From Candidatus Pelagibacter sp. TMED275 (GTDB taxonomy: Bacteria > Pseudomonadota > Alphaproteobacteria > Pelagibacterales > Pelagibacteraceae): 7,338 bases of DNA. Each line of letters opens with the position of its first letter. Position 1 is the first letter of the stretch. Position numbers and translations under genes: made by a program. Positions 1-7,338 of the stretch are shown here, piece after piece. A model generated the notes under the pieces. The model was not told where the DNA came from, ran no database searches, and worked only from the letters and a program-made list of their open reading frames with translations. The stretch is from contig NHLU01000009.1 of NCBI GenBank assembly GCA_002169255.1, forward strand, positions 1-7,338, written 5' to 3'.

Positions 1-47
1 GAAAACGGTCTTAGCGAATTAAATATAGATAGATCCCTACTTGTCAT
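1..47 (-). CDS. Probable small heat-shock protein (Hsp20 family), 5' end only
   Basis: This minus-strand gene starts with ATG at 47-45 and leaves the window after 15 full codons, reading MTSRDLSIFNSLRPF and then probably Ser. A very strong Shine-Dalgarno (AGGAGG at 57-52, four bases before the ATG) fixes the start; such a strong site is not seen at the other genes here. The N-terminus resembles proteobacterial IbpA/Hsp20 proteins, which begin with a short 'M..xDLSxL...' segment before the GFD(R/x)LF motif; that motif would lie just outside the window. The main support is upstream: a sigma-32-like promoter and a leader folding like a ROSE thermometer, which in alphaproteobacteria typically precede small heat-shock genes. 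Hsp20 proteins are ATP-independent cytoplasmic holdases that keep unfolding proteins soluble for DnaK/ClpB. The family call is an inference from 15 residues plus the leader; the alpha-crystallin domain cannot be seen. Confidence 0.62.
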   Translation of the reverse strand, partial: MTSRDLSIFNSLRPF

Positions 48-98
48 ATTTCCTCCTTTGTTAGCAAGGTTATTTTTGAAGCCCCATTAGGCGACTTC
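48..98 (-). promoter_or_regulatory. ROSE-like RNA thermometer in the leader of the hsp20-like gene
   Basis: Read on the minus strand, the leader forms two hairpins. Hairpin I (98-78) pairs GAAGTC-(G)-CC with GGGGCTTC around a TAAT loop: eight base pairs, one of them G-U, with G92 bulged. After an A-rich linker, hairpin II pairs CCTT(G)CT (69-63) with the entire Shine-Dalgarno AGGAGG (57-52) around an AACAA loop, with G65 unpaired or opposite G. A U-U/C-G-C-U anti-Shine-Dalgarno with an extra G is the hallmark of ROSE elements, which hide the ribosome site at low temperature and melt on heat shock. Two short hairpins make this smaller than classical rhizobial ROSE leaders, which have more stems. 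The pairing is read directly from the sequence; temperature control is inferred. Confidence 0.68.
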
Positions 99-105
99 AA
101 TAGAT

Positions 106-132
106 ATATAGTAACTCTTTTTTAATTTTCAA
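106..132 (-). promoter_or_regulatory. Sigma-32 (RpoH)-like promoter for the hsp20-like gene
   Basis: On the minus strand a -35 element TTGAAA (132-127) is followed, 17 bases after its TTG, by ACTATAT (112-106). The alphaproteobacterial RpoH consensus is approximately CTTG-N17/18-CYTATNT, so this matches three of four -35 bases and all but the first base of the -10. Transcription would begin around 101-98, exactly at the base of hairpin I of the leader. TTGAAA with TATATA (16-base spacer) would also be an acceptable sigma-70 promoter, so dual use is possible. It lies in the 94-bp gap after the ptrB stop; no terminator separates it from ptrB, so read-through from ptrB could also reach the gene. 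Confidence 0.55.
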
Positions 133-141
133 TAGATAAAA

Positions 142-2220
142 TTAAATAAGCTTTTCTGAAATTTTTAAAATAAAAGTGTAATCAAATGCTAGTTCTTCAA
201 TAGCACCATCTCTTCCAGATTTACCACCATGACCAGCATTCATTTCTGTTTTTAGAAATAGTAAATTTTTATCAGTTTTAAATTCTCTTAATTTAGCTGT
301 AAACTTAGTTGGTTCATCAAATAAAACTCTGTTGTCGCTCAAACTAGTTGTAATAAGTATATTAGGATAATCCATTTTTTTTATATTATGGTATGGGGAA
401 TAGGAATAGATGTAATCAAAATGATCTTTATTATCTTTTGCATTACCAAACTCATCAAATTCTCCAATTGTTAAAGGTAGAGAGTGATCAAGATTAGTAG
501 TTAAGGAGTCGACAAATGGTACTGCCATAATCATTCCTAAGAATAGATTTGGCTCTTCGTTGACAACAGCTCCCATTAATAATCCTCCAGCAGAGCCTCC
601 CATTCCAATAATTTTCTTTTCAGATGTATATTTTTTTTCAATTAGAAACTTTGCTACTGAAATATAGTCTTTAAATGTATTTTTCTTATTTAACAATTTT
701 CCATCTTTCCACCATTTCATGCCTCTCTCCATGCCACCCCTCACATGCGCTGTAACCCAAATTATATCTCTATCTATTAAACTAAATCTTGAGGATGAAA
801 AATTTGGAGAAATTGAATGGCCGTATGATCCGTATCCATATAATAATAAATTTGAAGACCCATCTATTTTAGTTTTTTTATTTCTAGTTAGAGTTATTGG
901 TATTTTTTTTCCATCATGAGCAACACATTCTAATCTTTCCACAATATAATTATCAGGATTGTGTCCAGAGGGTATTTCTTGTTCTTTAATTAGTTTTCTA
1001 TCTTTATTTTTTAGATTATATAAATATGTTCTGCTTTGAGTTTTTGGAGAGGAATAACTTAAATAAATTAAATTAGTATCTCTATCTCTTTGCATGAGTG
1101 AGAGTCCAGGAGAAATTACTTTTTCATTTTCAAATTTTATCTCTTCTTCCTTATTATTTTTAACGTCTTTTACAAATATCTTATTTAAGGCATTTGATTG
1201 TTCACTTCTAAGTATCCAATCTTTTAAAAAAACTAAATCACCAATAAGCACTTCATTTTTAGGTGCAATATAAGTTTCCCATTTTTGTTCATTTAGATTT
1301 TCACATTTATCAATTTTAAAATCTTCAGCATTTTTATTTGTGTGATTATAGAAAATTTTATTCCAAGAATTAATAGAATATATAATACCCTTTTCTCTTT
1401 TAATTATTAATTTTGGTTTTGGATTTTCTTCATTAGCATCAAAATAATATTGTTCTGATGTATTATGGTCCGAAGAACTAATAAAATAATATTTTTCATC
1501 TGAGCTAAGGTACATACTTACAGTAAAAGCTTCAGTTTTTTCCTCAAAAATTAATTCATCTTTAGATACCGAAGTTCCAATTTTGTGTCTAAAAATTTTT
1601 CTTGGCCTATGATTTTCATCAAGTTTTGAATAAAAAATATATTTATCATCTAGACTGAAAGTAATAGAGCCAGAAGTGTCATGAATTTTTTCTGATATTA
1701 GATTATCATTATTAATATTTCGTAAATAAATAGTATAATATTCTGATCCTTTTATATCTAAAGAGTACCCAAGTATCTTATCATTGTAGCTTACTTCCAA
1801 GTCTCCCACTCCAAAGTATTCGGTTTTTAATTTCTCTTTTTCTTTATCTCCATTCCAAAACTCTTCCACCTTATCTGTGCCGATTTTTTTTCTTAATCTT
1901 ATTGTGTAATTACCTTTTGATGTTGTTTTGCTCCAATAATCATAATTTTTGTCTTTTACAGGAAGAGATTCATCGTTCAATTTTATTCTTCCTTTTACCT
2001 CATGAAATATTTTTTTTTGAATTTCTTTAGTATCTTTAAAGAATTCTTCGGTATAGGCATTTTCATCTTCTAAATATTTCCTAACTTCTGGATTTAGCTT
2101 TGAGCTATCTTTTAAAACATCTAATATATCAGATTGATGGACCCAGCTGTAATTATCATCCCAAGAAATATTGTGACAAGATTTAATATCACTTTTTTTT
2201 TTAAGTTGTGGTACTTTCAT
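142..2220 (-). CDS. ptrB: Oligopeptidase B (protease II), S9A prolyl oligopeptidase family
   Basis: This 692-residue protein matches the family length (E. coli protease II is 686). It is a cytoplasmic serine peptidase that cleaves short peptides after Arg or Lys. The N-terminal part, with a DDNYSWV motif near residue 21 and 'YLEDENAYTEEFF' near residue 49, leads into a beta-propeller of repeated 'FSLDDKYIFYS'-type blades (about 70-430). The alpha/beta-hydrolase domain follows, with YGYGSYG and the GGSAGG nucleophile elbow. The triad is intact: S543, D629 (SLSDNR) and H664 (NAGHGGKSGR). E587 and D589 in 'LTIGEFDEFGN' align with the two E. coli acidic residues (E576, E578) that bind the basic P1 side chain; the second is Asp, a conservative change. 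No signal peptide is seen. The start overlaps the divergent J-protein start, and no clear Shine-Dalgarno is present. A run of ten A lies at codons 7-10. Confidence 0.93.
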   Translation of the reverse strand: MKVPQLKKKSDIKSCHNISWDDNYSWVHQSDILDVLKDSSKLNPEVRKYLEDENAYTEEFFKDTKEIQKKIFHEVKGRIKLNDESLPVKDKNYDYWSKTTSKGNYTIRLRKKIGTDKVEEFWNGDKEKEKLKTEYFGVGDLEVSYNDKILGYSLDIKGSEYYTIYLRNINNDNLISEKIHDTSGSITFSLDDKYIFYSKLDENHRPRKIFRHKIGTSVSKDELIFEEKTEAFTVSMYLSSDEKYYFISSSDHNTSEQYYFDANEENPKPKLIIKREKGIIYSINSWNKIFYNHTNKNAEDFKIDKCENLNEQKWETYIAPKNEVLIGDLVFLKDWILRSEQSNALNKIFVKDVKNNKEEEIKFENEKVISPGLSLMQRDRDTNLIYLSYSSPKTQSRTYLYNLKNKDRKLIKEQEIPSGHNPDNYIVERLECVAHDGKKIPITLTRNKKTKIDGSSNLLLYGYGSYGHSISPNFSSSRFSLIDRDIIWVTAHVRGGMERGMKWWKDGKLLNKKNTFKDYISVAKFLIEKKYTSEKKIIGMGGSAGGLLMGAVVNEEPNLFLGMIMAVPFVDSLTTNLDHSLPLTIGEFDEFGNAKDNKDHFDYIYSYSPYHNIKKMDYPNILITTSLSDNRVLFDEPTKFTAKLREFKTDKNLLFLKTEMNAGHGGKSGRDGAIEELAFDYTFILKISEKLI

Positions 2221-2256
2221 GATAATTATGAGTTATATAACATTAATAATTATCAT
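2219..2256. repeat. Inverted repeat over the divergent ptrB / J-protein start codons
   Basis: A perfect 11-bp inverted repeat, ATGATAATTAT (2219-2229) and ATAATTATCAT (2246-2256), has a 16-bp spacer that itself contains the 10-bp palindrome GTTATATAAC (2232-2241). One arm contains the J-protein ATG and two bases of the ptrB ATG. In either transcript the stem would involve the start codon; as DNA, the dyad could bind a dimeric regulator. In such AT-rich DNA a repeat of this size can arise by chance, so only its position makes it notable. Confidence 0.45.
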
Positions 2257-2740
2257 TTTACTAATAGCATTTTTGTTTATTATCAATTGGTTTCGTAGCA
2301 CACCTAGCAAAAAAATTGTGACAGTATTAAGAAAGTTCTGGATTTTAATATTTGGTATTTTGGCACTTTTAATGGCTTTTGGAGGCAGATATATATTTTC
2401 GTTACCTTTCTTGATGATGATTTTGCCTTTGATAAAAACTAAGGCAGGTTTAACTTTATTTCAAATATTTAGAATATGGAATTTGCTTCAAATATTAAAA
2501 CGTTCTGGAAGATTTAATTTTAATAGCAGTAACAATTCTTCAAACATTGAGAGAATGTCAAAAGCAGAAGCCCTTAAAATTTTAAATTTGAATCCTAATA
2601 AAACATATACAAAAAAAGATATTATTAATGCATATAAAAAAATTATGAAAAAAGTTCATCCAGATGTAAGCCCTGAGCTTACAAGATTGGCATCTATAGT
2701 AAATGAGGCTAAAGAAGTATTAACAAAAAATATTTCATAA
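2219..2740 (+). CDS. Small membrane-anchored J-domain protein (TIM14/Pam18-like DnaJ co-chaperone)
   Basis: This 173-residue protein has a strongly hydrophobic N-terminal helix (about residues 5-23), a basic linker, and a second hydrophobic stretch (about 41-72, possibly one or two segments). A Ser/Asn-rich spacer (100-110) leads to a C-terminal J-domain (about 113-170) with the diagnostic HPD tripeptide at 147-149. The 'MSKAEALKILNL...KKDIINAYKKIMKKVHPD...IVNEAKEVL' pattern matches alphaproteobacterial membrane J-proteins related to mitochondrial Pam18/TIM14. Such proteins stimulate the ATPase of Hsp70 at the inner membrane; the exact client is unknown. The usual Gly-Gly turn after HPD is replaced by VSPE. 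ATG at 2219 overlaps the ptrB start codon; ATG at 2228 (M4, MSYITL) is an alternative start that would leave the hydrophobic helix whole. Neither has a clear Shine-Dalgarno. The stop abuts the convergent GT9 gene. Confidence 0.82.
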   Translation: MIIMSYITLIIIILLIAFLFIINWFRSTPSKKIVTVLRKFWILIFGILALLMAFGGRYIFSLPFLMMILPLIKTKAGLTLFQIFRIWNLLQILKRSGRFNFNSSNNSSNIERMSKAEALKILNLNPNKTYTKKDIINAYKKIMKKVHPDVSPELTRLASIVNEAKEVLTKNIS

Positions 2741-6774: not shown

Positions 6775-7338
6775 ATGAAAAAAAAGAAAAAAAAATATAA
6801 GCAAAATATTAAGAAAAAAAAACTTAAATTTAAGACTAAACCTAAAAGTAAAAAAGTAAAAAAAAAAAAGTATTCAGATAGTATTAAAAAAGGAAAAAAT
6901 AAAAAATTCAAGAAAGTAAAGAAAAGGAGTAAAAAGTATAAAATAAAAAATATTTCTAAAAATAAAAGTTTAATTTCAAAAATTGCTCTTGCTCAAGAAA
7001 ATTTTTCTCTAAGTTTTAAGATTAATATTAATTTTAGCTTAGAAAAGTTTATTCAAAAATTTTTCGACTCAATATCAAATAAAATACAAGAATATAAAGA
7101 TACTAGACTTGAAGAGAAGAGGAGAATTAAGATTGAGAAAGCTATATTAAAACAAGAAAGCATAAAAATAGAAAGAGAAAAAAAACAAAAAGAGCAATTG
7201 ATATTATTAGAATTAAAAAAAAAAGAATTAAAAGAAGAAGAAAGATTAGAAAGAGAAAGAACAAAAGATATAAAAATATTTTTAAAAAAAGAACAAGCCT
7301 TAATTAGGAAAGAGCAAGCAGAAAAGCAGAAAAAATTT
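6775..7338 (+). CDS. Lysine-rich coiled-coil protein, function unknown, 3' end outside window
   Basis: This ORF opens with ATG at 6775, 33 bases after the CFA-family stop, and stays open for all 188 codons to the window edge. Staying open that long in A-rich DNA, where TAA is frequent, argues that it is coding. Residues 1-64 are extraordinary: 36 Lys and 1 Arg, starting with M and six Lys, low-complexity and likely disordered. Residues about 65-103 ('SLISKIALAQENF', 'FSLEKFIQKFFDSISNKI') look like amphipathic helices. Residues 104-188 are charged Lys/Glu/Arg/Gln helix with hydrophobics at heptad-like spacing, probably a long coiled coil. No signal peptide or membrane segment is seen. The basic tail could bind nucleic acid, rRNA or acidic membranes, but I recognise no family. 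M1 is the only Met, so no alternative ATG start exists. It may be co-transcribed with the upstream pair, since no terminator intervenes. The coding strand includes A8, A9 and A12 runs. Confidence 0.66.
   Translation, partial: MKKKKKKYKQNIKKKKLKFKTKPKSKKVKKKKYSDSIKKGKNKKFKKVKKRSKKYKIKNISKNKSLISKIALAQENFSLSFKININFSLEKFIQKFFDSISNKIQEYKDTRLEEKRRIKIEKAILKQESIKIEREKKQKEQLILLELKKKELKEEERLERERTKDIKIFLKKEQALIRKEQAEKQKKF

Follow-up and report, generated by a model that had tools for sequence, protein, structure and literature searches.

The leader of ibpA in Pseudomonas is described, in the part of the article on which we draw (Krajewski 2013, PMC3669281), as a two-hairpin structure with a sigma-32 promoter, in which U(U/C)GCU is set against the Shine-Dalgarno (SD) sequence, hairpin 2 melts while hairpin 1 is stable, an upper G-C pair of hairpin 2 is needed for repression, and induction (25 vs 42 °C, in E. 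coli) amounts to 3.3- to 8.3-fold. The same text lists classical ROSE elements, with three to four hairpins, from Rhizobium, Caulobacter, Salmonella and E. coli. Within SAR11, a 'possible RNA thermometer' is mentioned among the intergenic regions of strain HIMB5 (Stav 2019, PMC6429828); the portion of the text at hand names neither its gene nor its structure, and it may or may not be identical with the hsp20 leader treated here. A term search in the main text of Meyer 2009, on P. ubique RNAs, returned no thermometer or heat term, and among the matches listed from the open-licence literature none named the SAR11 hsp20 leader in its title or at the start of its abstract.

The window (the whole stretch of DNA that was analysed, 7,338 nt) carries on its minus strand a prolyl oligopeptidase gene followed by the start of an hsp20 gene (Table 1). 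In the sea, SAR11 bacteria rank with the most abundant cells, and their set of regulators is considered small. With the peptidase gene as anchor we collected 49 loci, most of them titled Pelagibacteraceae or Pelagibacter (the peptidase of the nearest relative, L001, is 91% identical to that of the window), in agreement with the SAR11-like genome surmised in a preliminary description of this DNA. An hsp20 gene was present in 42 of these loci and missing from the remaining 7 (L002, in which the sequence stops 39 nt past the peptidase match, L012, L026, L036, L038, L042 and L048); furthermore, at least one HSP20 match was found in 258 of the 297 genomes of the order to which L001 belongs. The same description took the downstream gene to encode an alpha-crystallin protein, and the gene is indeed an HSP20 one: the first 15 residues in the window (MTSRDLSIFNSLRPF) are the same as in L001, from which the identity is carried over, the L001 protein matching Pfam HSP20 (PF00011) with 63.7 bits. 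Elsewhere in the window, the stretch 2219-2740 (plus strand), divergent from the peptidase gene, encodes a small protein that is hydrophobic at its N-terminus and carries a DnaJ domain at its C-terminus (Pfam), and an open frame very rich in lysine lies at the window edge (6775-7338). We argue that translation of SAR11 hsp20 is very probably controlled by its leader, acting as a short two-hairpin RNA thermometer of the ROSE type.

Table 1. Features of the hsp20 leader and the adjoining genes, in window positions (SD, Shine-Dalgarno)
Feature	Position	Strand	Basis and details
hsp20 (small heat-shock protein) start	1..47	-	N-terminus MTSRDLSIFNSLRPF; runs off the window; start codon 47-45
AGUAGGG, hsp20 codons 3-5, possible second anti-SD partner (hairpin 2-prime)	35..41	-	predicted pairing with 69-63
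SD AGGAGG, candidate partner of 69-63 in hairpin 2	52..57	-	sequence and conservation
ROSE-type anti-SD CCUUGCU, bulged G65	63..69	-	CUUGCU conserved in main-group leaders
Hairpin 1 (UUGAAGUC-G-CC-UAAU-GGGGCUUCAA)	76..100	-	predicted fold; 10 bp, U100-A76 to C90-G85, bulged G92
-10-like element ACTATATA, RpoH-type promoter with the -35 at 126-132	105..112	-	motif rule in SAR11 leaders
-35-like element TTGAAAA, RpoH (sigma-32) type	126..132	-	motif rule in SAR11 leaders
Prolyl oligopeptidase (S9) gene, upstream of hsp20	142..2220	-	Pfam PF02897 and PF00326

The leader (window 100-48, minus strand) is predicted to fold into two hairpins, the second of which would consist of the pairs C69-G52, C68-G53, U67-A54, the wobble U66.G55, C64-G56 and U63-A57. 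The arrangement proposed beforehand, in which AGGAGG at 57-52 lies opposite CCUU(G)CU at 69-63 with the extra G bulged out, has the coordinates and strand right, and the first hairpin, placed at 98-78, was borne out by the fold, in which it is somewhat longer. Both hairpins (100-76 and 69-52) have a local module in common (a pyrimidine-G pair, a bulged G and a C-G pair), which was noted also for L053 and L059-L088. In comparison with shuffled sequences, the leader (98-48) had a z-score of -2.51 (4 of 200 shuffles equally stable), to which hairpin 1 was the main contributor, and the part with the anti-SD and SD sequences alone (72-45) one of -1.50 (15 of 200). On thermodynamics alone the leader is thus only modestly unusual, with the stability of hairpin 2 being near chance, and it is conservation, not folding energy, that raises the leader above chance.

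Folds were also computed at different temperatures. For the window alone at 37 °C, the best 3' fold was either CCUU:AAGG or a pairing of the anti-SD with codons 3-5, not the ROSE pairing; with 30 or 45 nt of the gene included, the ROSE pairing (with its bulged G) was the best fold at 10 °C and ceased to be so at 25 or 40 °C. The computed melting was shallow: between 5 and 45 °C, the mean probability of GGAG being unpaired rose from 0.20 to 0.30 in 102 distinct leaders folded alone, and from 0.39 to 0.60 with 30 nt of the gene added. Folding together with some coding sequence often favoured the pairing of the anti-SD with codons 3-5 or other folds, the outcome varying with the length of gene included. 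A weak hairpin 2 and shallow melting in silico would also be expected of an ordinary strong ribosome site under no regulation, whose 5' hairpin is a relic or serves only for protection of the mRNA, and the Pseudomonas authors themselves suggest, in the part of their text used here, that hairpin 1 may also stabilise the mRNA (PMC3669281). We hold this explanation to be highly improbable, however: a free SD sequence needs no invariant CUUGCU opposite to it (111/111 leaders) amid changing surroundings, and a similar module precedes hsp20 in other alphaproteobacteria.

Upstream of the leader, the window contains a candidate RpoH-like promoter (TTGAAAA-N13-ACTATATA, 132-105) with a predicted transcript start near 99. 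The rule by which such promoters were scored (TTGAA, a spacer of 13, a -10 box agreeing with CCCATATA at 5 or more of 8 positions, and a distance of at most 20 nt from the hairpin-1 core) was satisfied in 101 of 111 leaders, including that of the window, whereas 50 shuffles of the bases satisfied it in 0.14 leaders on average and in 1 of 111 at most; a looser count (105/111) was not used, 4 of its promoters being placed 75 nt away. The RpoH1 consensus is given as CTTGAA-N15-16-CCTATAT in the part of the source consulted, and differs from the window, which has ATTGAA in place of CTTGAA (PMC4843759). With the start taken 6 nt past the -10 box, the leader of the window measures 52 nt, the median over the 101 leaders being 57 nt, and hairpin 1 is brought to the 5' end of the transcript, its outermost pair or two possibly lying beyond the predicted end; the leader of about 50 nt and the 5'-terminal first hairpin of the preliminary description are both in agreement with this. 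A scan of window 1-400 for sigma-70 promoters and terminators found none.

The element recurs in every uncut main-group SAR11 leader examined. A first set of 148 loci gave 141 leaders, of which 140 were sorted into types (L087, whose leader is cut by the contig end, was left out): 106 with a ATGACAAGT start, 4 with other starts (L113, L114, L122 and L135), 29 of a three-hairpin sister type, and L053 (these counts are not independent, since some loci come from the same genome). The hairpin-1 core (5/5 pairs) and CUUGCU followed by GGAG were present in all of the 111 leaders formed by the window and 110 main-group members, with the best placing of hairpin 1 chosen and with a search pattern that presupposes the bulged G. 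As the pattern demands this base, its occurrence in 87/87 distinct hairpin-1 blocks is no evidence, and we used instead alignment A1, in which G92 and all of CUUGCU (68-63) were invariant in 103/103 rows (a second alignment, A2, was left out since it misplaced CUUGCU by one base). In the first set only the cut L087 lacked the wider motif U(U/C)GCU (present in 140/141), which was also found in 33/33 leaders collected later; many of these later ones are from genomes already sampled, and they carry CUUGCU in 31 cases and CUCGCU in 2 (L156 and L157). In the sister group, which belongs to the same order and comprises 29 leaders among L059-L088, hsp20 is preceded by a longer leader of three hairpins, with UCGCUUAAGGAGG and with UCGCU as its anti-SD; by eye, most of its members show UUUAAUCGCUUAAGGAGGAUUAAA, which places them closer to classical ROSE elements, and their upstream hairpins seem to bear a bulged G too. 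In L113 and L114 the stem of hairpin 1 is kept and its loop is longer (UAAUGUU, 7 nt).

Compensatory changes had been suggested as a check on both stems, and the outcome differs between them: they are abundant in hairpin 1, whereas hairpin 2 is almost invariant. Within the 87 distinct blocks, the five inner pairs of hairpin 1 were formed in 87/87 (aided by the search pattern), pairs 6-8 in 250 of 261 cells (shuffle mean 182, maximum 201, in 2000 row shuffles), and the outermost pair in just 52/87. Along a tree of the hsp20 coding region (first eight codons removed, 102 rows), pairs 6-9 underwent 77 pair-to-pair vs 20 pair-to-nonpair changes, a change of both sides with pairing kept being seen on 26 branches, and pair 10 showed 6 and 28, respectively. 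When the partner was slid by one position, the pair-to-pair counts at pairs 5, 6, 7 and 8 went from 4, 20, 19 and 19 to 9, 10, 1 and 1, the conserved pair 5 thus running opposite to pairs 6-8. Moreover, alignment A1 (103 rows) had a covariation score of 0.260 (0.151 shuffled, at most 0.086 slid) and 85 cells with both sides changed (25.0 +/- 3.8 shuffled, at most 35 slid). Hairpin 1 is hence marked by strong compensatory change, and its inner part is strongly conserved.

The core of hairpin 2 changed in A1 on one side only or was broken in a few rows, and of its ends the outer C-G pair was absent in 56/103 rows and the innermost U-A pair in 45/103, so that hairpin 2 counts as conserved and not as proven by covariation. 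The two ends appear to trade off against each other: a U after CUUGCU occurred in 0/21 stretches with a C before CUUGCU and in 36/38 without it, and 5 direct switches were counted on the tree, which would keep the number of pairs about constant. We regard this trade-off as suggestive of hairpin 2 pairing, and not as a proof of it. C69:G52 was considered separately as a covarying pair and is not claimed (p = 0.08).

The strong conservation of the inner part of hairpin 1 could also reflect a putative protein site, to which Hsp20 would bind in order to repress translation of its own mRNA, temperature acting via the amount of free Hsp20. An arginine within GI[SA]xR, which we take to be the counterpart of Arg93 in E. 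coli IbpA, is present in 140/140 proteins, but it may be kept for chaperone reasons. A precedent does exist, as the part of the E. coli study used here describes IbpA as repressing itself via the 5' UTR, with Arg93 being needed (PMC10474464). Such an autorepression leaves the conserved bulged anti-SD unexplained, and it may work jointly with a thermometer; as the explanation of this leader we deem it unlikely.

A further reading, compatible with the thermometer as a refinement of it and not as its opposite, is that of a switch in place of a zipper: the anti-SD would be shared by the SD sequence and hsp20 codons 3-5 (AAGUAAGG, which can form 7 bp with CUUGCUU or CCUUGCU), the first codons being held fixed for this purpose, and warming or the passage of RNA polymerase would shift the anti-SD between its partners. 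In line with this, 98 distinct main-type genes hardly vary at codons 2-4 (ACA 98/98, AGT 98/98, AAG 92/94), with AAG making up just 294 of the 1561 Lys codons past codon 6, and codons 2 and 3 are not fixed in this way in the sister-type hsp20. The predicted codon pairing is stabler than the SD pairing in 67/67 distinct stretches at 25 °C and in 66/67 at 37 °C, random synonymous recoding was equally stable in 3-15 of 500 trials (six chosen leaders), warming moves the ensemble from SD to codon pairing when 30 nt of the gene are included, and L122, despite its different N-terminus, keeps 8 bp (1/117 gene starts as good). On the other hand, early peptidase codons are frozen as well, to A-rich synonyms (36 SAR11 loci; AAA 34/34, ATA 26/26), suggesting a general selection on gene starts, and it is for this reason that we lowered the codon-pairing claim from near proof. 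Set against 117 other gene starts, those of the main type are unusual only at about the 1-7% level: in the AAG form, 6 and 1 of 117 were as good as hsp20 with one leader type and the other, respectively, in the AGG form 8 and 2, and the window's own combination was equalled by 2/117. Furthermore, the match in L113 is ordinary (20/117), L017 and L019 carry AAA, no good codon match was found in L135, L184, L189 and L192 (nor, by eye, in the CUCGCU leaders L156 and L157 or the three-hairpin group), the predicted folds shift with the length of gene included, and the codon pairs, being invariant, offer no covariation. We therefore treat the switch as a doubtful possibility, and retain the thermometer that opens at hairpin 2 as the preferred reading.

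The distribution of the element was also approached through family models. The covariance search with the Rfam ROSE models that had been proposed fell short of the threshold: at curated thresholds there was no ROSE call in the window, 20 sources and 16 further loci, and the window gave an in-register sub-threshold match to ROSE_3 (RF02523; 16.2 bits, E 0.27, cut-off 43). This match spans hairpin 1 to the start codon, and the hairpin 1 of the ROSE_3 consensus is bulged at the same place. Up to E 10, weak ROSE_3 matches occurred in 2/20 sources of one set and 0/16 loci of another; among the relatives, L133 reached 28.3 bits (the best SAR11 leader) and L128 19.5 bits. Being below the gathering cut-off, the leader is not a member of the Rfam ROSE_3 family as defined. 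The preQ1-II riboswitch model (RF01054) overlapped the leader with 20.0 bits (E 0.28, cut-off 47) and so outscored ROSE_3 in the window at a nearly equal E-value; it was rejected, hsp20 not being a queuosine gene. Matches to tsr33 and other sub-threshold Rfam models were set aside as chance or wrong context, and a loose DNA pattern (CTTGCT-GGAG-ATG, 297 genomes) was not used, the matches listed being mostly coding-like.

A covariance model built from A1 (R1; the 18 coding bases in it may favour or hinder distant matches) was run over 66 sources, where it matched the window and 42 hsp20-bearing peptidase loci, main-group leaders outside A1 (L168, L176, L178 and L182), 8/8 of the sister three-hairpin leaders tried, and L156, L157 and L053; the 11 matches elsewhere were all at or below 20.9 bits. 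Over 142 genomes of the class it gave 10 matches with E < 0.05, one of them being a training genome, and six of the nine others lay directly upstream of an HSP20 gene (L184, L185, L187, L188, L189 and L192), the exceptions being L186, L190 and L191. Among the weaker matches L193-L197 none was seen to precede hsp20 (12 further weaker rows were left out). With stricter filters there was no match in 119 of the 142 genomes, including G008, although its leader (L053) matches otherwise. Near 1500-1580 of L193, a hairpin resembling a terminator (GGCGGTCGCCTAATGGGGCCGCC, with eight T after it) has the exact SAR11 hairpin-1 core, and is not placed before hsp20. ROSE_3, when run over the same 142 genomes, gave one match (L152, 1501-1570, in a GC-rich genome; 32.8 bits, under the cut-off), and no hsp20 turned up at this locus in a search with two queries.

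Taken together, the observations obtained here comprise an HSP20 gene, a promoter-like motif, a covarying first hairpin, a near-invariant anti-SD and SD, and the recurrence of this arrangement before hsp20. Three features of the ROSE class are present (location in the untranslated leader of a gene for a small heat-shock protein, U(U/C)GCU with a bulged G able to pair with the SD, and a conserved upstream hairpin), and they support the interpretation first given to this leader as being right in kind. The shallow computed melting, the near-invariant hairpin 2, the missing loop-side G-C pair and the sub-threshold Rfam scores count against it. Under the proposed mechanism, hsp20 would be transcribed from an RpoH-type heat-shock promoter, and hairpin 1 would form at the 5' end of the mRNA and remain closed. 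At normal sea temperature the SD would be masked by the U(U/C)GCU anti-SD, joined to it by weak pairs with a bulged G, and warming would loosen hairpin 2 and let ribosomes start. As the plan is that of Pseudomonas ibpA, from which we infer the temperature-dependent opening, thermosensing via hairpin 2 seems to us the best reading. If it is true, SAR11 hsp20 carries a conserved RNA temperature sensor that the Rfam thresholds miss.

Among the systems described so far, the classical ROSE elements follow the same idea of a 3' anti-SD hairpin, and differ from the main-group SAR11 leaders, which have one upstream hairpin only. With Pseudomonas ibpA the SAR11 leader has the two-hairpin plan in common; it differs in being AT-rich, in the sequence of hairpin 1, in its melting, which is here a computed one, and in hairpin 2, where the place of the loop-side G-C pair is taken by U63-A57 (a difference that counts against a thermometer). 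The preliminary description spoke of a reduced two-hairpin thermometer: the two-hairpin form holds, but a leader of this form is not new, since Pseudomonas ibpA already has one (PMC3669281), and such a reduction is thus not peculiar to streamlined genomes. The SAR11 leader adds to the known short ROSE type and is no new kind of device; if the thermometer reading is right, it would suggest that the two-hairpin ROSE plan is common to distant lineages.
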